Of a stretch of 64,000 nt of DNA, positions 343 through 38,464 are shown piece after piece (position 1 is the first letter of the stretch; each line of letters opens with the position of its first letter). This stretch comes from Martelella lutilitoris (GTDB taxonomy: Bacteria; Pseudomonadota; Alphaproteobacteria; Rhizobiales; Rhizobiaceae). A model generated the notes under the pieces. The model did not search any database. It was not told the origin of the DNA and saw nothing but the letters and a program-made list of their open reading frames with translations. A program made the position numbers and the translations under genes. Location of the stretch: NCBI RefSeq assembly GCF_005924265.1, contig NZ_VCLB01000002.1:434001-498000 (forward strand). Direction: 5' to 3'.

Positions 343-2550
343 ATGAGCCTTCATGAACGGCCGGATGGCGGGGAAAGCTACGAGACGAAGGGCGGCGTGA
401 CGATTACGCGCACCCGCCGTTTCGTGCCCTATGGCGATTCCGTATCGAGCTATATCGACAGGCTGGACGAGCGTCGCGGCGCGGTCTTTTCGTCCAACTA
501 CGAATATCCGGGCCGCTATACGCGCTGGGACACCGCCGTCATCGATCCGCCGGCCGCCATTTCCTGCAATGGCCGCACCATGTGGATCGAGGCCTTCAAC
601 GGACGCGGCGAGGCCCTGCTTGCGCTCATCCTCCCGGTCGTGGAAGCGCTGGAACCGGTGACGATAACCGGCCGCACGGCCCGCCGGATCGATCTTCAGG
701 TGGCGGAACCCGACCGTCAGTTCACCGAGGAAGAGCGCTCCAAGGCCCCGACCGTCTTCACCGTGCTGCGCGCCATCGTCGATCTCTTCCATTCCGATGA
801 GGATGCGAGCCTCGGGCTCTATGGCGCCTTCGGTTACGACCTTGCCTTCCAGTTCGACGCCGTGAAGCTGAAACTGGAGCGCCCGGCCGACCAGCGCGAC
901 ATGGTGCTATTCCTGCCCGACGAGGTGCTGATGGTCGACAACCACGCCGCCAAGGCCTGGATCGACCGCTATGACTTTGAAAAGGACGGGATTGCAACGG
1001 AGGGCAAGGGCGAGGACATCGCGTCCGATCCGTTCCGCCCCTCCAACAGCCTGCCGCCCCGCAGCGACCACCACAAGGGCGAATATGCCGAACTCGTCAC
1101 CAAGGCGAAGGAAAGCTTCGTGCGCGGCGACCTGTTCGAGGTCGTGCCCGGCCAGCAGTTCATGGAACGCTGCGCCAGCAAGCCCTCGGCGATCTCCAAG
1201 CGGCTGAAGACGACCAACCCGTCGCCCTATTCCTTCTTCATCAATCTCGGCAACCAGGAATATCTGATCGGCGCATCGCCGGAAATGTTCGTGCGCGTGA
1301 CCGGCCGTCGGATCGAGACCTGCCCGATCTCCGGCACGATCAAGCGCGGCGAGGACCCGATTGCGGACAGCCAGCAGATACTCAAGCTGCTGAACTCGCA
1401 GAAGGACGAATCCGAACTGACCATGTGTTCCGATGTCGACCGTAACGACAAGAGCCGGGTCTGCGAGCCGGGCTCGGTCAAGGTCATCGGCCGCCGCCAG
1501 ATCGAGATGTATTCGCGTCTTATCCACACGGTCGACCATATCGAGGGGCGTCTGCGCCCTGACATGGACGCCTTCGATGCGTTTCTCAGCCACGCCTGGG
1601 CGGTGACGGTGACCGGCGCGCCCAAGCTCTGGGCGATGCGCTTCATCGAGAACCATGAGAAGAGCCCGCGCGCCTGGTACGGCGGGGCCATCGGCATGGT
1701 CGGCTTCAATGGCGACATGAATACCGGTCTGACGCTGCGCACGATCCGGGTCAAGAACGGCACGGCGGAAGTGCGCGCCGGGGCGACCCTGCTTTACGAT
1801 TCCGATCCCCATGAGGAAGAAGCGGAGACCGAATTGAAGGCTTCAGCCATGCTTGCGGCCATCCGCGAGGCGGATGCAGAAAAACTTGAACCTGCCGCGC
1901 GGTCGGTGTCGAAGATCGGCGCGGGGCTGAAGATCCTGCTTGTCGATCATGAAGACAGTTTCGTCCACACCCTCGCCAATTATTTCCGCCAGACCGGGGC
2001 GGAGGTTGCGACCGTGCGCTCGCCGGTGGCAGATGAAACCTTCGACCGGATCGCGCCGGACCTCGTTGTCCTGTCGCCGGGACCGGGCATGCCGAAAGAT
2101 TTCGATTGCAAGGAGACGATCAAGAAGGCGCGCAGCCGCAACCTGCCGATCTTTGGCGTCTGCCTCGGCCTGCAGGCGCTGGCGGAAGCCTATGGCGGCA
2201 CATTGCGGCAGCTTGCAGTGCCGATGCACGGCAAGCCGTCGCGGATCCGTATCCTCGAACCGGGGCGTCTTTTCGATGGCCTGCCGAAGGAGATCACCGT
2301 CGGCCGCTATCATTCGATCTTCGCCGATGCGGTGCAACTGCCGAGCGAATTCGCCATCTCGGCGGAGACCGATGACGGCATCGTCATGGGCATCGAGCAC
2401 GCGCATGAGCCGGTTGCCGCCGTGCAGTTCCATCCCGAATCGATCATGACGCTTGGCGGCGATGCCGGCATGCGCATCATCGAGAACGTGGTGGGCAAGC
2501 TGGTAGACCGTTCCGGCGAAGCTCTGGGGAGCAAAAAGGCGGCAGGCTGA
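343..2550 (+). CDS. trpE(G): Anthranilate synthase, fused TrpE-TrpG
   Basis: This enzyme converts chorismate and glutamine to anthranilate, the first step of tryptophan synthesis, in the cytoplasm. The protein has 735 residues. The N-terminal two thirds is the chorismate-binding TrpE component; [11 protein letters not shown] and [12 protein letters not shown] are typical of its active site. From about residue 525 a class I glutamine amidotransferase domain follows ([19 protein letters not shown]), with the nucleophile Cys in FGVCLGLQ and the HPES histidine near the C-terminus. The single-chain fusion is characteristic of rhizobia. The ATG has GGAGCAGGGA in front of it. Expression is expected to follow the upstream attenuator. 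Confidence 0.98.
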
Positions 2551-30485: not shown

Positions 30486-30708
30486 CTGGTTCCTCTCCGA
30501 AGTCTGTTGCCCAGCCCTTCTAGCATGTCTTGCGCCAGGCAGCGCAAGGCTGCAATGCACCTGCAGAACGCTTCGGGCCGCGACCAAGCGTTGCCGAGAG
30601 GCAACATATTCGGGTGAAATGTCCTTTTTGCAGGCAATGTCTGTGGCCACGCCGAAGCGGAGGGGGTATAAGGCCTTCGTTTTCTCTAACTGGCGAAAGG
30701 AGCATGGC

Positions 30709-30765
30709 ATGATGAACATCACTGGCTTTGTAATGCTCCGCGTTCCACCGCGCCTTTACGTGTGA
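30709..30765 (+). CDS. Candidate leader peptide of the ABC exporter gene
   Basis: An 18-codon ORF reads MMNITGFVMLRVPPRLYV and then TGA. AAGGAG at 30697-30702 lies six bases before the ATG, a better ribosome-binding site than most genes here have. It ends 144 bp before an ABC half-transporter. The ending LRVPPRLYV holds a Pro-Pro pair flanked by Arg, the sort of sequence at which ribosomes pause. I do not recognise it from the literature. Translation and a regulatory role are inference. Confidence 0.6.
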   Translation: MMNITGFVMLRVPPRLYV

Positions 30766-30832
30766 CCTTTCACACCTCCTTCTTCTTTCCTATTTAATCA
30801 TCCGAATTAACGCGACCGCGCAGACCGGTCGC
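30760..30832 (+). promoter_or_regulatory. Hairpins and anti-ribosome-binding-site stretch after the leader
   Basis: GTGTGA (30760-30765, containing the leader stop codon) pairs with TCACAC (30770-30775) around CCTT. It runs directly into CACCTCCTT (30773-30781), a textbook anti-Shine-Dalgarno sequence. That stretch could pair with the leader site AAGGAG (30697-30702) or with GGGAGG (30889-30894) just ahead of the ABC gene. A second hairpin, GCGACCG (30812-30818) with CGGTCGC (30826-30832), follows. The pairing alternatives are inferred from complementarity only. Confidence 0.5.
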
Positions 30833-30909
30833 TGTTCCAGTCCCGGATCCGCCCATGCGGACATGTTGCGCCTTTGACAGGAACAACCGGGAGGCATTGG
30901 AGTCCGATC

Positions 30910-32766
30910 ATGTTTCGCTGGTTTGAAAACCGCCTCAATCCCTATCCCGTGGAAGAGCCCACGGCGCCCCCCACGGGGCTGATTCCCTTCCTGTGGCACT
31001 ATTCGAAGCCTGCCGCGCCCTATCTGGCGTTGATGGCCTTCATTGCGGCGCTGGTCGCCTTCGGGGAAGTCTATCTGTTCCGCTTCCTCGGCGATATCGT
31101 CGACTGGCTGTCGACGGCCAACCGCGAGACCTTCCTTGCGGACGAGGGCTGGCGGCTTGCCTTCATGGGCGCTTTGGTCCTGGTTCTGTTGCCCGGGCTG
31201 ACGATCTTCTCCTCGCTGCTCATCCATCAGGTGCTTCTGGGCAACTTGCCGATGATCAGCCGCTGGCAGATGCATCGCTATGTGCTGCGCCACTCGATGA
31301 ATTTCTTCGCCAATGAGTTTGCGGGCCGGGTCTCGCAGAAGGTCATGCAGACCTCGCTGGCGATCCGCGAGACGGTGATGAAGGCGCTGGACATGTTCGT
31401 CTACGTCATCACCTATTTCGTTTCGATGATCTTCATCGTCGCGGCGGCCGACAGGCGTCTCGTCATTCCGCTCCTGGTGTGGATCGTGGTTTATGCCGCG
31501 CTGCTCTGGTACTTCATTCCGCGTCTGCGCAAGATTTCGGCGGATCAGGCCGATGCGCGCTCGCTGATGACGGGCCGGGTGGTCGACAGCTACACCAATA
31601 TCGCCACCGTCAAGCTGTTTTCGCACGCCGGCCGCGAGGAGCTGTTCGCGCGCGAGGGCATGGACGGCTTCCTGGAAACGGTCTACCGCCAGATGCGGCG
31701 GGTGACCCAGTTCCAGGCGCTGGTCTACATCAACAACGCGGTTGCGCTCTTCGCCGTGGCGGCGCTTGCAATCCGCTTCTGGCTGGAAAGCAGCATCACC
31801 GTCGGCGCGATTGCCCTGACCCTCGGTCTCGTCATGCGCATCGGCGGCATGTCGCAGTGGATCATGTGGGAGGTCACGGGCCTCTTCGAAAATATCGGCA
31901 CGGTTTATGACGGCATGTCGATGATGGCGAAGAAGCACGAGCTGGTCGATGCCGATGACGCAAGGCCACTTGTCGTCAACAAGGGCGAGATCGTCTACGA
32001 CGACATCTCCTTCCACTATGGCAAGGAGGGCGGCGTGATCTCCGGCCTGTCGCTGACCATCAGGCCTGGCGAAAAGGTCGGTCTGGTCGGCCGCTCCGGC
32101 GCCGGCAAGACGACGATGATGAACCTCCTGCTGCGCTTCTTCGATCTGGAAGGCGGCAGGATCACCATCGACGGCCAGGACGTCTCGAAGGTGACGCAGG
32201 ACAGCCTGCGCTCGATGATCGGCGTGGTGACGCAAGATACCTCCCTGCTGCACCGTTCGATCCGCGACAACATCGCCTACAGCCGTCCGGGCGCGACCGA
32301 CGAGGACGTGATTGCCGCGGCCAAGCGGGCGAACGCCTGGGACTTCATCGAGGGCCTTTCCGACATGCAGGGCCGCACCGGCCTTGACGCCCATGTCGGC
32401 GAGCGCGGGGTGAAGCTTTCCGGCGGTCAGCGCCAGCGCATCGCGATTGCCCGCGTGTTCCTGAAGGACGCGCCGATCCTGGTGCTGGACGAGGCGACCT
32501 CGGCGCTCGACTCCGAAGTCGAGGCGGCCATCCAGGAAAGCCTGTTCGGGCTGATGGAAGGCAAGACCGTGATCGCGATCGCCCACCGGCTTTCGACGCT
32601 GACCGAGATGGACCGCCTTGTCGTCCTCGACAGGGGCGAGATCATCGAGACGGGATCGCATCGCGAACTCGTCGAGACTGGCGGCGTCTATGCCGTTCTC
32701 TGGAAGCGCCAGTCCGGCGGTTTCCTTGCCGAAGACGACACGGTGGCCGGAGAGGCTGCTGAGTGA
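30910..32766 (+). CDS. ABC exporter half-transporter (fused membrane and ATPase domains)
   Basis: This 618-residue protein has an N-terminal six-helix exporter domain (about 30-330) and a C-terminal ATPase. The ATPase has Walker A (GRSGAGKTT), Q-loop (VTQDTSLLH), signature (LSGGQRQRIAIARVF), Walker B with its catalytic Glu (ILVLDEATSALDSE) and the H-loop (IAHRLSTL), all intact. It resembles MsbA/LmrA-type multidrug or lipid exporters and pairs with the similar gene at 33615. ATG at 30910 has GGAG seven bases upstream. The frame opens at a TTG at 30874 without a better site. It may be controlled by the leader ORF at 30709. Confidence 0.92.
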   Translation: MFRWFENRLNPYPVEEPTAPPTGLIPFLWHYSKPAAPYLALMAFIAALVAFGEVYLFRFLGDIVDWLSTANRETFLADEGWRLAFMGALVLVLLPGLTIFSSLLIHQVLLGNLPMISRWQMHRYVLRHSMNFFANEFAGRVSQKVMQTSLAIRETVMKALDMFVYVITYFVSMIFIVAAADRRLVIPLLVWIVVYAALLWYFIPRLRKISADQADARSLMTGRVVDSYTNIATVKLFSHAGREELFAREGMDGFLETVYRQMRRVTQFQALVYINNAVALFAVAALAIRFWLESSITVGAIALTLGLVMRIGGMSQWIMWEVTGLFENIGTVYDGMSMMAKKHELVDADDARPLVVNKGEIVYDDISFHYGKEGGVISGLSLTIRPGEKVGLVGRSGAGKTTMMNLLLRFFDLEGGRITIDGQDVSKVTQDSLRSMIGVVTQDTSLLHRSIRDNIAYSRPGATDEDVIAAAKRANAWDFIEGLSDMQGRTGLDAHVGERGVKLSGGQRQRIAIARVFLKDAPILVLDEATSALDSEVEAAIQESLFGLMEGKTVIAIAHRLSTLTEMDRLVVLDRGEIIETGSHRELVETGGVYAVLWKRQSGGFLAEDDTVAGEAAE

Positions 32767-32864: not shown

Positions 32865-33007
32865 GCAAGCGCTTTCCGTGTAGCCCTGGATCCCGGCTCA
32901 AGGCCGGGATGACGGAGGATCGGGAGAGAAAGCAACCAGACAGGCACGCTTTCTTTTTTCTCAGCCTCTCCTCTCCCGTCATCCCGGCCTTGAGCCGGGA
33001 TCCAGGG
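32865..33007. repeat. Palindromic repeat pair, left of the GIY-YIG remnant
   Basis: A 51-bp unit (32865-32915) ends in the palindrome GGATCCCGGCTCAAGGCCGG and then GATGACGG. It recurs in direct orientation at 33348-33398. A second palindrome (32976-33007) is the reverse complement of 32884-32915 over 32 bp, so the two form a large inverted repeat. The sequence family is the GTCATCCCGGCCTTGAGCC type common in alphaproteobacteria. It lies between the two ABC genes and encodes nothing. Confidence 0.8.
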
Positions 33008-33031
33008 CCATGCGGGGAAACCTCGCCGTGA

Positions 33032-33347: not shown

Positions 33348-33484
33348 GCAAGCGCTTTCCATGTGGCCCTGGATCCCGGCTCAAGGCCGGGATGACGGAT
33401 AAGGTTGGTCGGTGAGTAAACGGATAACGCTCCTGTTCCTCTAATACCCTCTCCCGTCACCCCGGCCTTGAGGCGGGGTGCAGG
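33348..33484. repeat. Palindromic repeat pair, right of the GIY-YIG remnant
   Basis: Bases 33348-33398 repeat 32865-32915 in the same orientation with few changes. A degenerate inverted copy (33454-33484, GTCACCCCGGCCTTGAGGCG) lies 56 bp further on. With the left pair this brackets the GIY-YIG remnant symmetrically. The remaining bases up to the second ABC gene at 33615 hold no ORF and no obvious ribosome-binding site. Confidence 0.78.
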
Positions 33485-33614
33485 TGCAGTGCGGGAAGAC
33501 TTTGTTGCAGTTGAATCGGTCCCTGCCACGTGGAAAGGCGGCCAGGCTGTCCACTCTCTTTTGATCAAACGATAATTGGCGCGCCTGCCGAATCCCTGTA
33601 TCTCTCTTCCCATC

Positions 33615-35483
33615 ATGATATTTCAGCGCATTGCAGAATTGTTCGAGCGGTGGATTGATCCGCTGGCCGACCATACGCCTGAGCGGCCGCCGGAGAAGCT
33701 TGTACCGTTTCTCTGGTATTTCCTGCGTCAGGCGAAGTGGCCGTTCTTCGCCATGCTCATCGTCGGCGGTGGCGTGGCGATCATGGAATCGGCCGCCTTC
33801 TGGTTCATGGGCGTGCTGATCGACATTCTCGATGGCACCCCGCGTGAGGCGGGCTGGTCGGGGCTGATGGCCGAATATGGCTGGGTGCTGATCGGCATGG
33901 CCTTTGCCATGGTGGTCGTCCGCGTCGGGCTGACCACGCTGCAGATGTTGATCGAGGAACAGACGATCGTTCCCGGATTCAACAATCTGGTGCGCTGGCA
34001 GTCGTACCGCTATGTGGCGCGGCAATCGCTCGATTTCTTCCAGAACGATTTTGCCGGACGGATCGTCACCAAGGTGACGGCGGCCGGCCAGTCCATCGGC
34101 GACCTGATGTCGTCGCTCCTGCAGGTCGTCTGGTTCATGGCGATCTACGCGATCTCGACCATGGCGCTGGTTGCCGCCCTCGACTGGCGGCTTGCGGCGC
34201 TGATTGCGCTGTGGATCGCGATCTTCGCCGTCCTGGCGCGGTTTTTCGTGCCGCGCATCCGCGAAAACGCCCGGGAACTGGCGGAAGCCAATTCGATGAT
34301 GTCGGGCCGGATGGTCGATTCGTTCTCGAATATCCTGACCCTCAAGCTTTTCGGCAGCGACGAGGGCAATGATGGCTATATGCGCGGCGGTTTCGAGCGG
34401 CTGATCGCGCGCGTTAAAGCCTTCACCCGGCTGATCACCGGGGTCAGGGCCTCTCTCAGCCTGTTATCGGGCGTGATGATCACGGCGATTGCAGCGCTTT
34501 CCGTGCATCTGTGGTTTTCAAGCGATATCTCCTCGGGCGATGTCGCCTTCACGCTCGGCCTGTCGCTTCGCCTTTCCATGCTGCTCGGCCGGCTGATGAT
34601 GCAGCTAAACGGCATCATGCGGGCGATTGGCACCATCCAGAATTCCGCCGAACTGATCGCGCAGCCGATCGGCCTGGTCGACAAGCCGGACGCCGTGCCG
34701 CTCGTGCTGCGCAATCCGGCCATCCGCTTCGACAATGTCAGCTTCGGCTATGACGGCGGCAAGGGTGTGATCCGCGACTTTTCGCTTGATGTGCGCGCCG
34801 GCGAGAAGGTCGGCATTGTCGGGCGATCGGGCGCCGGAAAATCCACGCTCGTCAACCTGCTGTTGCGGTTTTATGATGTCGATGGCGGCCGTATCCTGAT
34901 CGACGGCCAGAACATTGCCGATGTGACGCAGGAAAGCCTGCGGGCGGGGATCGGCATGGTCACCCAGGATACCGGCCTGCTGCATCGCCCGATCCGCGAT
35001 AATATCCGTTTCGGCAATGAAGATGCCGGCGACGACATGTTGTGGGAGGCGGTCGAGCGGGCGGAAGCAGACAGTTTCATTGCCGATCTGGCCGATCTGC
35101 GCGGGCGCAAGGGACTGGACGCCTATGTCGGCGAGCGCGGGGTGAAGCTTTCCGGCGGCCAGCGCCAGCGCATCGCGATTTCGCGGGTGATGCTGAAGGA
35201 CGCGCCGATCCTCGTACTCGACGAGGCGACCTCGGCGCTCGATTCGGAGGTCGAGGCCGCGATCCAGGCCAATCTGATGAAGCTGATGGAGGGCAAGACC
35301 GTGCTCGCCATCGCCCACCGCCTGTCGACAATCGCTGCACTGGACCGGCTGATCGTGATGGACAAGGGCCGGATCGTCGAGGAAGGCACCCATGAGGCGC
35401 TGATCGAAAAGGGCGGGCTCTACGCCTCGCTCTGGGCCCGACAGTCCGGTGGTTTCCTGCCCGAGCTCGACGACGGAGAGTAG
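33615..35483 (+). CDS. ABC exporter half-transporter, second gene
   Basis: This 622-residue protein has the same layout as its neighbour: a six-helix exporter domain, then an ATPase with Walker A (GRSGAGKST), signature (LSGGQRQRIAISRVM), Walker B (ILVLDEATSALDSE) and H-loop (IAHRLSTI). The two ATPase regions are nearly identical in places, so they arose by duplication and may form a heterodimer. The repeat-rich 848-bp gap between them is unusual for partner genes and may reflect later insertion. ATG at 33615 has no good ribosome-binding site, so start confidence is lower than gene confidence. Confidence 0.9.
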   Translation: MIFQRIAELFERWIDPLADHTPERPPEKLVPFLWYFLRQAKWPFFAMLIVGGGVAIMESAAFWFMGVLIDILDGTPREAGWSGLMAEYGWVLIGMAFAMVVVRVGLTTLQMLIEEQTIVPGFNNLVRWQSYRYVARQSLDFFQNDFAGRIVTKVTAAGQSIGDLMSSLLQVVWFMAIYAISTMALVAALDWRLAALIALWIAIFAVLARFFVPRIRENARELAEANSMMSGRMVDSFSNILTLKLFGSDEGNDGYMRGGFERLIARVKAFTRLITGVRASLSLLSGVMITAIAALSVHLWFSSDISSGDVAFTLGLSLRLSMLLGRLMMQLNGIMRAIGTIQNSAELIAQPIGLVDKPDAVPLVLRNPAIRFDNVSFGYDGGKGVIRDFSLDVRAGEKVGIVGRSGAGKSTLVNLLLRFYDVDGGRILIDGQNIADVTQESLRAGIGMVTQDTGLLHRPIRDNIRFGNEDAGDDMLWEAVERAEADSFIADLADLRGRKGLDAYVGERGVKLSGGQRQRIAISRVMLKDAPILVLDEATSALDSEVEAAIQANLMKLMEGKTVLAIAHRLSTIAALDRLIVMDKGRIVEEGTHEALIEKGGLYASLWARQSGGFLPELDDGE

Positions 35484-35710
35484 GCGTTTTCCGGTTTCGC
35501 GGTTGCAGCACGGCAAGGGGGCGGGCCGGCCGTTTCCGCTCGGTTCATCGGCGATAACCATTGCCTGTGATTGAAATCGGTCAAACACTGGACATCCTGA
35601 ATAATCATGCATAAAACTTGGCGATCATATGAACGTTGCCCAGGCGCTTTCGTTACGGCGAAGGAGGGACGTCACCGCAGGCAACGGCATCAGCTGATGG
35701 AGGGATAGCG

Positions 35711-36289
35711 GTGCAAGACGAGACTGTTTCGACGGATCATTCCGGCGAACCGACCCGGCGCGATTTTCTGTATCTGACAACCGGCGTGGCCGCTGCGGTG
35801 GGGGCGGCTGCGGTCGCCTGGCCGTTCATCGACCAGATGCGGCCGGATGCCTCGACGCTGGCCCTTTCGACCGTCGAAGTGGACGTTTCCAGCCTCGAGC
35901 CCGGAATGTCGCTGACGGTGAAGTGGCGCGGCAAGCCGGTTTTCATCCGCAACCGCACGGAGCGCGAGATCGAAGAGGCAAAGGAGGTGCCGCTCTCCGA
36001 TCTCAAGGATCCGGAAGCGCGCAACGAGAACCTGCCGGCCGGATCTCCGGCGACGGACGTCGACCGGTCTGCGGGCGAATCCAAGGAAAACTGGATCGTG
36101 ATGATCGGGTCATGCACCCATCTCGGCTGTATTCCGCTCGGCCAGGCCGGCGATTTCGGCGGGTGGTTCTGTCCCTGCCATGGTTCGCACTACGACACAG
36201 CGGGCCGCATTCGCAAGGGCCCCGCGCCGCAGAACCTTGCCATTCCGCTATACGAATTTACGTCCGACACTGTGATCAGGATCGGTTGA
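35711..36289 (+). CDS. petA: Ubiquinol-cytochrome c reductase Rieske iron-sulfur subunit
   Basis: This 192-residue subunit passes electrons from ubiquinol to cytochrome c1 in complex III. A twin-arginine signal-anchor ([20 protein letters not shown], 20 residues) holds it in the inner membrane with the head in the periplasm. The 2Fe-2S ligands are in CTHLGC and CPCHGSHYD, and both disulfide Cys are present. GTG at 35711 is chosen because GGAGGG sits just upstream. It is the first gene of petABC, with 16 bp to petB. Confidence 0.97.
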
Positions 36290-36305
36290 GGGGAGAGACT
36301 GAATC

Positions 36306-37583
36306 ATGAGTGGACACTCGAGCTATGTGCCGAAGAATGGCGTGTCGAAATGGGTGGATGCGCGACTGCCGCTGCCCCGCATGCTTTATGACAGCTTCGT
36401 TTCCTATCCCGTACCGCGCAATCTGAACTACGCCTATACGTTCGGCGCCATGCTTTCGGTCATGCTGCTGGTGCAGATCGTGACCGGCATCGTGCTGGCC
36501 ATGCACTATACGTCTTCCACTTCCGCCGCCTTCCTGTCGGTCGAGAAGATCATGCGGGATGTGAATTACGGCTGGATGCTGCGCTACATGCATGCAAACG
36601 GCGCGTCGTTCTTCTTCATCGCCGTCTATCTGCATATCGCCCGCGGGCTTTACTACGGTTCCTACAAGGCGCCGCGCGAAATCCTCTGGATGCTTGGCGT
36701 GGTCATCTACCTGTTGATGATGGCGACCGGCTTCATGGGCTATGTGCTTCCCTGGGGACAGATGTCGTTCTGGGGCGCAACGGTGATCACCGGCTTCTTC
36801 ACCGCCTTTCCGCTGGTCGGCGACTGGGTCCAGCAGCTCCTCCTCGGCGGCTTTGCCGTCGGCGAGCCGACACTGCAGCGCTTCTTTGCGCTGCACTATC
36901 TGCTGCCCTTCATGATTGCCGGCGTCGTGGTTCTGCACATCTGGGCGCTGCATGTGACCGGGCAGACCAACCCGACGGGGGTCGAGGTCAAGCAGAAGAG
37001 CGACACCGTGCCCTTCACGCCCTATGCGACGCTGAAGGACGCCTTCGGGGTGACGATCTTCCTGATCGCCTATGTCTGGTTCATCTTCTACATGCCGAAC
37101 TTCCTCGGCCATCCGGACAACTACATTCCGGCCGATTCGATGAAGACGCCGGCCCATATCGTGCCGGAATGGTATTACCTGCCCTTCTACGCGATGCTGA
37201 GGGCGATCACCTTCGACATCGGACCGATCGATTCGAAGCTCGGCGGCGTGCTGGTGATGTTCGGTTCGATCATCATCCTGTTCTTCCTGCCCTGGCTGGA
37301 TACGTCCAAGGTCCGTTCGGCCGCCTACCGGCCCTGGTTCAAACTGTTCTTCTGGCTGTTCGTCGCCAATGCGGTGATGCTCGGCTGGCTGGGCTCTCAG
37401 CCCGCCGAAGGCACGTTCGTGGTCATGTCGCAGCTTGGAACGCTTTATTATTTCGGATTTTTCCTGGTGATCATGCCGGTTCTGGGACTGATCGAAACAC
37501 CGAGCCGGGTACCGAATTCGATCACCGAAGCGGTTCTCGAGAAGGAGGCCCTTCGCAAGAAGCCGGCCGAGAGCAACGGTTGA
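36306..37583 (+). CDS. petB: Cytochrome b of the bc1 complex
   Basis: This 425-residue protein is the full-length alphaproteobacterial cytochrome b, with about eight membrane helices carrying haems bL and bH and the two quinone sites. The Qo-site PEWY motif ([15 protein letters not shown]) is present, as are paired His residues in TM2 and TM4 for haem ligation. It is co-transcribed with petA and petC, 23 bp before petC. It acts in the inner membrane, and proton translocation by the Q cycle depends on it. Confidence 0.98.
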
Positions 37584-37606
37584 TGCGTGGCGAGAGGGGA
37601 AAAACC

Positions 37607-38464
37607 ATGAAAAAGCTTATCGCCACGGTTCTGTTTTCGGCGCTTCTTTCGCCCTTCTGTCTTTCCGCTGCCGTCGCAGCGGAAGAGGGGGAGGGCGGTG
37701 GTACGCCGCATTATCCGCTGGAACATCCTGAGGAGATGGACTGGAGTTTCGCCGGTCCTCTCGGCACCTATGATCGCGGCCAGCTGCAGCGCGGGCTGAA
37801 GGTCTACAAACAAGTCTGCTCGGCCTGTCACTCGCTCGATCTGGTGGCGTTCCGCACGCTTTCCGACCTTGGCTATTCGGAGGAACAGGTGAAGGCCTTC
37901 GCCGCCGAATACGAGATCGAGGCCGGTCCCGACAATGACGGCAACATGTATATGCGGCCGGGCATTCCGTCGGACTATTTCCCGGCGCCGTTCGAAAATC
38001 CCGAACAGGCTGCGGCGTCCAACAATGGCGCGGCCCCGCCGGATCTGTCGCTGATGGCGAAAGCCCGCGGCATAACGCGCGGCTTCCCGACTTTCGTCTT
38101 CGACATCTTCACCCAGTATCAGGAAGGCGGGCCGGATTATATCCACGCGCTGCTTACCGGTTATGAAGAGCCGCCGGAAGGCGTCGAGATCCCGGCGGGC
38201 ACATACTACAATCCCTATTTCGCCAACGCCGCCTCGCTCGCCATGGCGCCGCCGCTTTCCGACGGGATCGTCTCTTATGACGACGGTGCGCCGGAGACGG
38301 TAGACCAGTATTCGCGCGATATCGCCGCCTTCCTGATGTGGACGGCGGAACCGAAGCTCGAAGACCGAAAGCAGACCGGCCTCGTGGTCATGGTCTTCCT
38401 CGTGATTCTGGCGGTTCTGGTTTTCCTCACGAAAAAATCGGTCTATGCCCGTAAGCACGATTGA
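37607..38464 (+). CDS. petC: Cytochrome c1
   Basis: This 285-residue protein has a cleavable signal peptide (MKKLIATVLFSALLSPFCLS to about residue 25), the c-type haem site VCSACHSLD near residue 70, a periplasmic domain, and a C-terminal anchor (LVVMVFLVILAVLVFLTKK). The distal Met ligand should be in the later ANAASLAMAPPL segment. It completes petABC. ATG at 37607 follows GAGAGGGGA. A strong terminator comes after it. Confidence 0.97.
   Translation: MKKLIATVLFSALLSPFCLSAAVAAEEGEGGGTPHYPLEHPEEMDWSFAGPLGTYDRGQLQRGLKVYKQVCSACHSLDLVAFRTLSDLGYSEEQVKAFAAEYEIEAGPDNDGNMYMRPGIPSDYFPAPFENPEQAAASNNGAAPPDLSLMAKARGITRGFPTFVFDIFTQYQEGGPDYIHALLTGYEEPPEGVEIPAGTYYNPYFANAASLAMAPPLSDGIVSYDDGAPETVDQYSRDIAAFLMWTAEPKLEDRKQTGLVVMVFLVILAVLVFLTKKSVYARKHD

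Follow-up and report, generated by a model that had tools for sequence, protein, structure and literature searches.

Comparison of the leader of an ABC exporter operon in Martelella lutilitoris with the corresponding regions of its relatives points to a conserved short upstream open reading frame (uORF), which is very probably translated and embedded in RNA structure kept by selection. As indicated by the compared sequences, the uORF is conserved, the pairing of its Shine-Dalgarno (SD) sequence with an anti-SD stretch of its own codons is selected, a segment in front of the uORF (A) is complementary to a segment behind it (D), the stop codon adjoins D, and the whole arrangement is dedicated to the exporter operon. 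We tentatively propose, at slightly less than even confidence, that this leader is a translation-sensing and probably Rho-dependent uORF attenuator, which would switch the exporter on when translation of the uORF falters.

The leader and its exporter operon

The window, i.e., the whole stretch of 64,000 nucleotides analysed here, carries on its forward strand a gene for an ABC exporter half-transporter (30910..32766), the presumed target of the leader, which was recognised by Pfam (ABC_tran 2.6e-32, ABC_membrane 9.1e-13), NCBIfam and PDB matches. A second ABC half-transporter, identified by Pfam and NCBIfam on the same strand (33612..35483), is its probable heterodimer partner. In NCBIfam both half-transporters matched the broad exporter superfamily only and stayed below the cut-offs of the best 25 families listed for each, and the best 60 of the 588 PDB matches of the first were mostly eukaryotic ABCB proteins. 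A FUSC-family gene on the opposite strand points away from the leader. Downstream of the two half-transporter genes, at 35636-38464, the translations suggest by eye the genes of ubiquinol-cytochrome c reductase (those for the Rieske protein, cytochrome b and cytochrome c1). Palindromic repeats lie between the half-transporter genes at about 32865-33026 and at 33368-33484, with sub-threshold Rfam matches to plant microRNA families; they are probably rhizobial intergenic repeats.

The initial annotation had described an 18-codon ORF with its SD sequence, a hairpin holding the stop codon and a gap of 144 nt before the exporter, and all of these are present in the sequence. The leader ORF (MMNITGFVMLRVPPRLYV-stop; 30709..30765, forward strand), read from the sequence and from relatives, runs from the ATG at 30709 to the TGA at 30763-30765, 144 nt ahead of the exporter ATG at 30910. 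By sequence reading, AAAGGAG at 30696-30702 is its ribosome-binding site; sequence, fold and relatives place its SD (GGAGCAT) at 30699..30705 of the forward strand, where it forms the 5' arm of an SD/anti-SD helix. The stop codon lies inside a forward-strand hairpin at 30760..30775, seen in the sequence, in the terminator scan and across the genus, which consists of six base pairs with no mismatch (GTGTGA-CCTT-TCACAC, CCTT being the loop) and would not be remarkable by itself. The whole leader of the window folds with a z of -1.84, and 9 of 200 shuffles were equally good.

Upstream of the leader promoter, an inverted repeat on the forward strand (GTTGCC-GAGA-GGCAAC, 30590..30605) is a possible operator. 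Of 55 non-redundant leaders, 39 carry an operator-like dyad when at most 3 mismatches are allowed, compared with 17 on average in shuffled sequences, and in 31 of those 39 it lies 107-131 nt 5' of the uORF. The dyads of many relatives, often reading TGTGCC-N5-GGCAAC, stand at a similar distance from the uORF and form a candidate operator. A -10-like element, TATAAG, is located at 30667..30672 on the forward strand and recurs as a loose pattern in 28 of the 55 relatives, while a sigma-70 consensus scan of the window found no promoter. The transcript would start near 30679-30681, about 30 nt 5' of the uORF. In the minimum free energy (MFE) fold of the window, the 5' end of the leader (30688-30698) can also form an 11-position pairing with codons at the very start of the exporter (30913-30923), which was seen by eye in close congeners as well; tested over the near group defined below (A against exporter codons), this pairing stayed below the threshold and was rejected.

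Conservation of the leader across the family

Exporter orthologues at E <= 1e-150 were found in 145 of 151 genomes of the family, taken from its named relatives as Rhizobiaceae in the broad sense. The 600 nt upstream were read for 110 orthologues, one of which (L066) was incomplete, leaving a base of 109. An SD-bearing uORF was picked by hand in 66 of these 109, so that counts from this set are not blind. The uORFs fall into a near group, to which the window belongs, with the uORF roughly 100-240 nt ahead of the exporter, and a far group, in which it is more distant and often separated from the exporter by a small ORF some 85-130 codons long. These intervening ORFs (L097, L099, L123, L128 and others) are varied and by eye fall into two types or more, one marked by LSAAFRAALG with a GHK/GHR end and the other by RPHRGMLPDVD; their products are possibly exported or associated with the exporter.

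Two covariance models were trained, R1 on 15 near leaders including that of the window and R2 on 14 far leaders. In 79 loci that had not been used for its training, R2 found 37 matches (E <= 3.1e-4), which come from 31 genomes; 15 of these genomes had no hand-picked uORF in the 600 nt read, and 2 belong to a set of 20 that are more distant. These held-out matches are less biased than the hand picks, although models trained on uORF leaders still favour similar spacing. R1 matched 16 non-training loci at E < 0.01, and seven of these belong to the genus of the window. Among the 77 of 80 named loci that were scanned, 51 were matched by R1 and/or R2 at E <= 0.05, all upstream of the exporter, in Rhizobium, Sinorhizobium, Ensifer, Agrobacterium, Ciceribacter, Hoeflea, Mesorhizobium, Aminobacter, Nitratireductor, Chelativorans and others. 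The leader was not found by R1/R2 in the loci of Devosia, Hyphomonas, Marinicaulis, Parvularculaceae, Phyllobacterium, Vibrio and Psychromonas, and no uORF of this kind was recognised in the 600 nt upstream of six family orthologues of 67-70% identity (L042, L044, L049, L050, L052, L053). The entries of four exporter orthologues of 61-63% identity (L280, L281, L286, L266) bear the names Vibrio, Psychromonas and Bacillus subtilis, pointing to gene transfer or to wrong labels; none of the four loci gave a leader match.

Whole-genome scans placed significant matches only ahead of the exporter operon, in all 20 genomes that had one, and no significant copy away from the exporter appeared in 23 distinct genomes, the remaining matches having E values of 0.12-0.92. 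Since the scans score only preselected candidates (at most 92-150 per genome, 25 in the order search), weak copies may escape them, and R1 missed G089 and G021, both with hand-picked uORFs. The leader was single except in G068 and G163, which carry a tandem pair. Tandem leaders ahead of one exporter were located at L186:399-511 and 987-1111 (+) and at L185:100-224 and 697-809 (-), with a small ORF of a different type after the first copy. The order-wide R2 search matched 7 of 150 genomes at E <= 0.1: three in one genus (E 1e-7, 1e-7 and 0.003), of which one was examined at the exporter, and four weak ones (E 0.017-0.07).

The proposal that a leader ORF with alternative RNA structure precedes the exporter is supported far beyond the genus of the window, and the uORF layout recurs across the family, contrary to the lack of frame conservation upstream of orthologues that had been named as grounds for abandoning it. 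Rfam gave no match in the window at the gathering threshold and, at E up to 5, ten matches in the loci of 30 relatives, all under gathering scores and none at the leader. In the parts of the open-licence PMC literature that were consulted we found no description of this leader; supplementary tables, e.g., those of S. meliloti ribosome profiling (PMC10117765), may list the ORF.

Conservation within the genus and the role of the peptide

A nucleotide search of 41 genomes matched the leader interval in 9 of 12 congeners (E <= 8.4e-5), which together with the genome of the window make ten genus genomes read, the three congeners without such a match being left out. The block TGAYCWTTCACAC is found in all ten, and by eye a pairing of the SD with codons 9-11 of at least 5 bp is possible in each, with variants such as GGAGCAT:ATGCTCC in the window, GGAGCAT:GTGCTCC in L002-L004 and GAGGCATC:GATGCTTC in L008. 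Among the 13 genus genomes, R1 recovered 10 at E <= 1e-4 and was weaker in G012 (0.15, the leader being visible in L007) and G008 (0.85), with no match in G005. In the genome of the window it marked a single site, the window leader, at E 3e-9, this leader being part of the R1 training set.

The initial annotation had suggested a ribosome held at Arg-Val-Pro-Pro-Arg and recommended aligning the interval across orthologues, where a conserved peptide ending would support it. Within the genus the peptide ending favours the suggestion, as [R/H]VPP occurs in 9 of 10 uORFs with synonymous changes, L007 being the exception; in other genera it goes against it, with [R/H]VPP in none of 64 hand-picked uORFs and VPP without Arg in two named loci, L230 and L250. 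A genus-evolved arrest at Arg-Val-Pro-Pro, either similar to RAPP or drug-dependent as in erm leaders, would account for the pattern within the genus, and RxPP with Gly, Ala, Ser or Pro at x is found among arrest-inducing sequences (PMC12992588). However, Val is absent from the x residues given there (PMC12992588), the motif is missing from L007, a congener, and from the other genera compared, all of which retain the leader, and the partner strand CACCTCCTT is not conserved. We therefore consider peptide-specific stalling improbable, and the held ribosome, as originally described, is not supported by the comparison: the motif is bound to the genus and the leader persists without it.

The uORF peptides differ widely between genera and range from 12 to 28 residues, sharing traits such as a start of the type M-D/N and an Arg-Leu-Pro, the latter because the anti-SD codons entail those residues. 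An Arg-x-Pro-Pro core of the RAPP kind travelling with the leader was not found, RVPP being confined to the genus of the window, nor was a conserved arrest peptide of the erm type across genera; inspection of the listed uORFs by eye gave no common run of codons for one amino acid as in trpL-type attenuators. While peptides vary among genera and the RNA features persist, pN/pS was 0.52 over 16 close pairs, some with common members. Such a value would suggest some mild constraint on the peptide, in keeping with translation and unneeded by a pure RNA model. It could also be read in favour of a small protein acting by itself, e.g., on the exporter, but peptides that are barely alike between genera and so variable in length make this explanation highly unlikely.

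Pairing of the Shine-Dalgarno sequence with codons of the uORF

In the window, the anti-SD ATGCTCC in codons 9-11 of the uORF (30733..30739, forward strand) forms 7 bp with 30699-30705 in both the MFE and the centroid fold, and in relatives the SD of the uORF is complementary to its own codons 8-11. Over 55 non-redundant near uORFs the SD/anti-SD energy was -13.8 kcal/mol versus -12.4 kcal/mol for synonymous recodings (Wilcoxon p = 1e-6), although only 17 of the 55 leaders rank in the best tenth of their own recodings. Leucine at codons 8-11 is encoded by CTC/CTT in 46 of 52 cases, compared with 1002 of 2567 Leu codons in the exporter genes, where CTG makes up 1396 of the 2567. The synonymous-recoding result and the Leu-codon bias together argue for selection on the RNA and not on the peptide alone. 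Shuffled sequences fold less well than the 55 leaders (mean z -1.39, t-test p 6e-13), in which the SD is paired with a probability of 0.92 in silico.

When cognate SD/anti-SD pairs were tested against mismatched ones, the result was positive for the redundant leaders (z -3.2, 4 of 5000) and negative for the non-redundant near set and for the far set (z -0.4, -1.0), because both arms hardly vary. The predicted pairing of the ribosome-binding site with early codons of the uORF that it serves is a property of the duf1127-1 type of leader compared below.

Rhizobia use RNA thermometers in which the SD is paired, and the SD sequestered in silico is what would be expected if the hairpin melted with temperature or bound a metabolite, with the uORF merely reporting the change. 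Against such a thermometer or ligand riboswitch stand the Rfam results, without a match in the window at gathering or at the leader of the 30 relatives; moreover, the sequestered SD serves an 18-codon ORF, and the adjacency of the stop codon to D suggests that translation matters. This explanation appears a shade less probable still than stalling on a specific peptide.

The predicted A:D helix around the uORF

Segment A (GAAAGG, 30695..30700) can pair with segment D (CCTTTC, 30766..30771), both on the forward strand, A being identified by cognate pairing tests over relatives and D, in relatives, by its complementarity to A and its position immediately 3' of the stop codon. Over 60 leaders the cognate A x D energy was -11.6 kcal/mol and the mismatched one -8.9 kcal/mol (z -8.9, 0 of 5000 permutations as good). 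The complementarity also held in the non-redundant sets, both near (55 leaders, z -5.0, 0/2000) and far (28 leaders, z -4.3, 1/2000). Of 55 segment pairs in the near set, the two passing z -2.5 were A x D and a hairpin 25-75 nt before the exporter, whereas two of 36 segment pairs in the far set reached a z of +3 in the opposite direction. Because the permutation tests take related leaders as independent, and because of these two far pairs, the z values are nominal and too sharp. The register of A:D varies by subtype (CGCGAACCG:CGGTTCGCG, AACGCC:GGCGTT, AACACC:GGTGTT), as expected from repeated compensation. In the window itself A:D scores weakly, with only 6 bp (GAAAGG:CCTTTC) and 2 nt shared with the SD, and in its genus the stop-codon hairpin occupies the place of A:D.

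The stop codon stands directly before D in 27 of the 31 parsed held-out R2 matches, whose uORFs range from 14 to 26 codons (33 of the 37 matches were passed to a script, and the sequence after the stop was judged by eye). The exceptions are L169, L172, L067 and L082, and L174 and L194 remained unparsed. This adjacency, combined with a nearly free peptide, argues for a ribosome that both translates and terminates as the relevant one and not for one stalled on a particular peptide.

Another structure had been put forward as the switch strand in the initial annotation, namely CACCTCCTT at 30773-30781, pairing either with the ribosome-binding site of the leader or with GGGAGG at 30889-30894 ahead of the exporter. 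It had to be discarded, not being conserved even within the genus: CACCTCCTT is intact in 2 of 10 genus genomes and GGGAGG is present in 5 of 10. In the 55 near leaders no cognate pairing between a leader segment and the exporter ribosome-binding region passes z -2.5, and the sequestration of the ribosome-binding site of the regulated gene that marks erm-type leaders was accordingly not found in this set. The lack of pairing above threshold weakly favours transcriptional control.

Leaders of the far subgroup have, 50-59 nt downstream of D (CGGCGG...), a conserved segment E (CCGCCG, 22 of 28) whose sequence complements that of D (z -2.7, 12/2000), and a hairpin follows E (z -4.6, 0/2000). Both observations suit a switch made of RNA structure alone, in which D would bind A as long as the uORF stays idle and shift to E upon translation, the D:E pairing exposing or hiding the next ribosome-binding site with no part for Rho. 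The near subgroup of the window, on the other hand, has neither D x downstream pairing nor pairing of the exporter ribosome-binding site at z -2.5 in its 55 leaders. A moving D is unlikely, while it carries clearly more weight than any of the other alternatives to a Rho-dependent attenuator.

Sequence elements after the stop codon

Directly behind the stop codon the window has a C/U-rich segment of 38 nt with zero G (30766..30803, forward strand), a possible Rho-utilisation segment. Relatives show a moderate enrichment of a G-poor stretch after the uORF (28 of 55 versus 17.8 expected), and their excess of C over G is modest on average. By analogy with the duf1127-1 leader compared below, termination here is probably Rho-dependent.

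The simple terminator scan of the window gave two terminator-like sites against 0.8 expected, and the terminator candidate of the window is one weak 6-bp site, the hairpin at 30760-30775. A classical attenuator, in which this hairpin of the genus with its pyrimidine tail would act as a weak terminator or as a pause site for RNA polymerase, draws on the fact that the hairpin passes the scan and is kept in 10 of 10 genus genomes, and on the terminator-like sites found after the uORF in 8 of 55 leaders, compared with 1 to 6 in ten shuffles. The hairpin has only three G-C pairs, however, with CTCCTTCTTC as its tail, and 47 of the 55 leaders lack such a site; with an excess as slight as 8 of 55, intrinsic termination would not apply to the leaders in general, though a minority may use it. 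We regard this mechanism as very improbable.

Proposed mechanism

The reading that we tentatively prefer, a translation-sensing attenuator probably working through Rho, would operate as follows. When untranslated, the leader RNA would close, the SD of the uORF pairing with codons 9-11 and, in many relatives, A pairing with D around the uORF. During normal translation ribosomes would hold both helices open, and the terminating ribosome would occupy D, since the stop codon adjoins it. The translated state most likely leaves 30766-30803 open to Rho, and transcription would end before the exporter. If initiation or elongation on the uORF fails, owing to a ribosome-targeting antibiotic or to a shortage of ribosomes, the fold or a stuck ribosome would mask these elements and RNA polymerase would read into the exporter genes. 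The part of Rho, the ON/OFF direction, the inducer and the substrate of the exporter are what we infer from the comparisons.

There is, in our estimate, an even chance that the leader represents a dedicated, family-wide RNA element of Rhizobiaceae whose sensor is the ribosome on an arbitrary short ORF, with its stop codon abutting the switch strand. If so, this strand would otherwise close a helix round the whole ORF and the peptide content would be nearly free. The translation capacity of the cell would then set the expression of an ABC exporter operon and, in some genera, of extra small proteins, and the exporter would gain a testable class of inducers. The comparative signature, an SD pairing with codons of its own ORF and a stop codon abutting the switch strand, offers a way to find more leaders of this sort, which searches for conserved peptides miss.

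Comparison with known leaders

Translation attenuators of the erm type need a defined arrest peptide and a sequestered ribosome-binding site of the gene itself. The leader described here resembles them in combining a leader ORF with alternative pairing and differs in that neither an arrest peptide nor sequestration of the exporter ribosome-binding site is seen as conserved. The likeness to the RAPP-type leaders ApdP/ApdA is limited to the genus of the window, where Arg-x-Pro-Pro lies near the C terminus of the leader peptide; unlike there, x is Val, outside the reported residues, and the known RAPP cases precede genes of protein localisation (PMC12992588, PMC10951233).

The bmrB-bmrCD system of Bacillus subtilis likewise places a uORF before a heterodimeric ABC exporter, senses the state of translation and is induced by antibiotics (PMC4191407). 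The bmrB uORF, however, has 53 codons with an intrinsic terminator inside, which is not seen in most of the present leaders, and loss of its translation lowers expression (PMC4191407).

The closest parallel is offered by the duf1127-1 leader of S. meliloti 2011, with a uORF whose ribosome-binding site is predicted to pair with early codons, derepression both by synonymous changes and by removal of the start codon, a decisive role for the RNA and not the peptide, and induction by tetracycline and chloramphenicol (PMC12218461). An intrinsic terminator was not found there and Rho was proposed, a C-rich element lying immediately behind the stop codon (PMC12218461). Both leaders occur in the same family and belong to short transcript leaders, with a ribosome-binding site complementary to codons of its own ORF; the window also shares a segment of C over G after the stop. 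The one printed duf1127-1 fragment, allowing up to 4 substitutions, was not found in 20 DUF1127 loci. The duf1127-1 uORF comprises about 30 codons as estimated from the printed positions, pairs through codons 3-10 and precedes a DUF1127 gene, whereas here codons 8-11 of about 18 are involved, an ABC exporter lies downstream and an additional A:D helix surrounds the uORF. If the proposed mechanism holds, the attenuator put forward for one gene of S. meliloti would be part of a wider strategy of the family, applied here to the control of an exporter.
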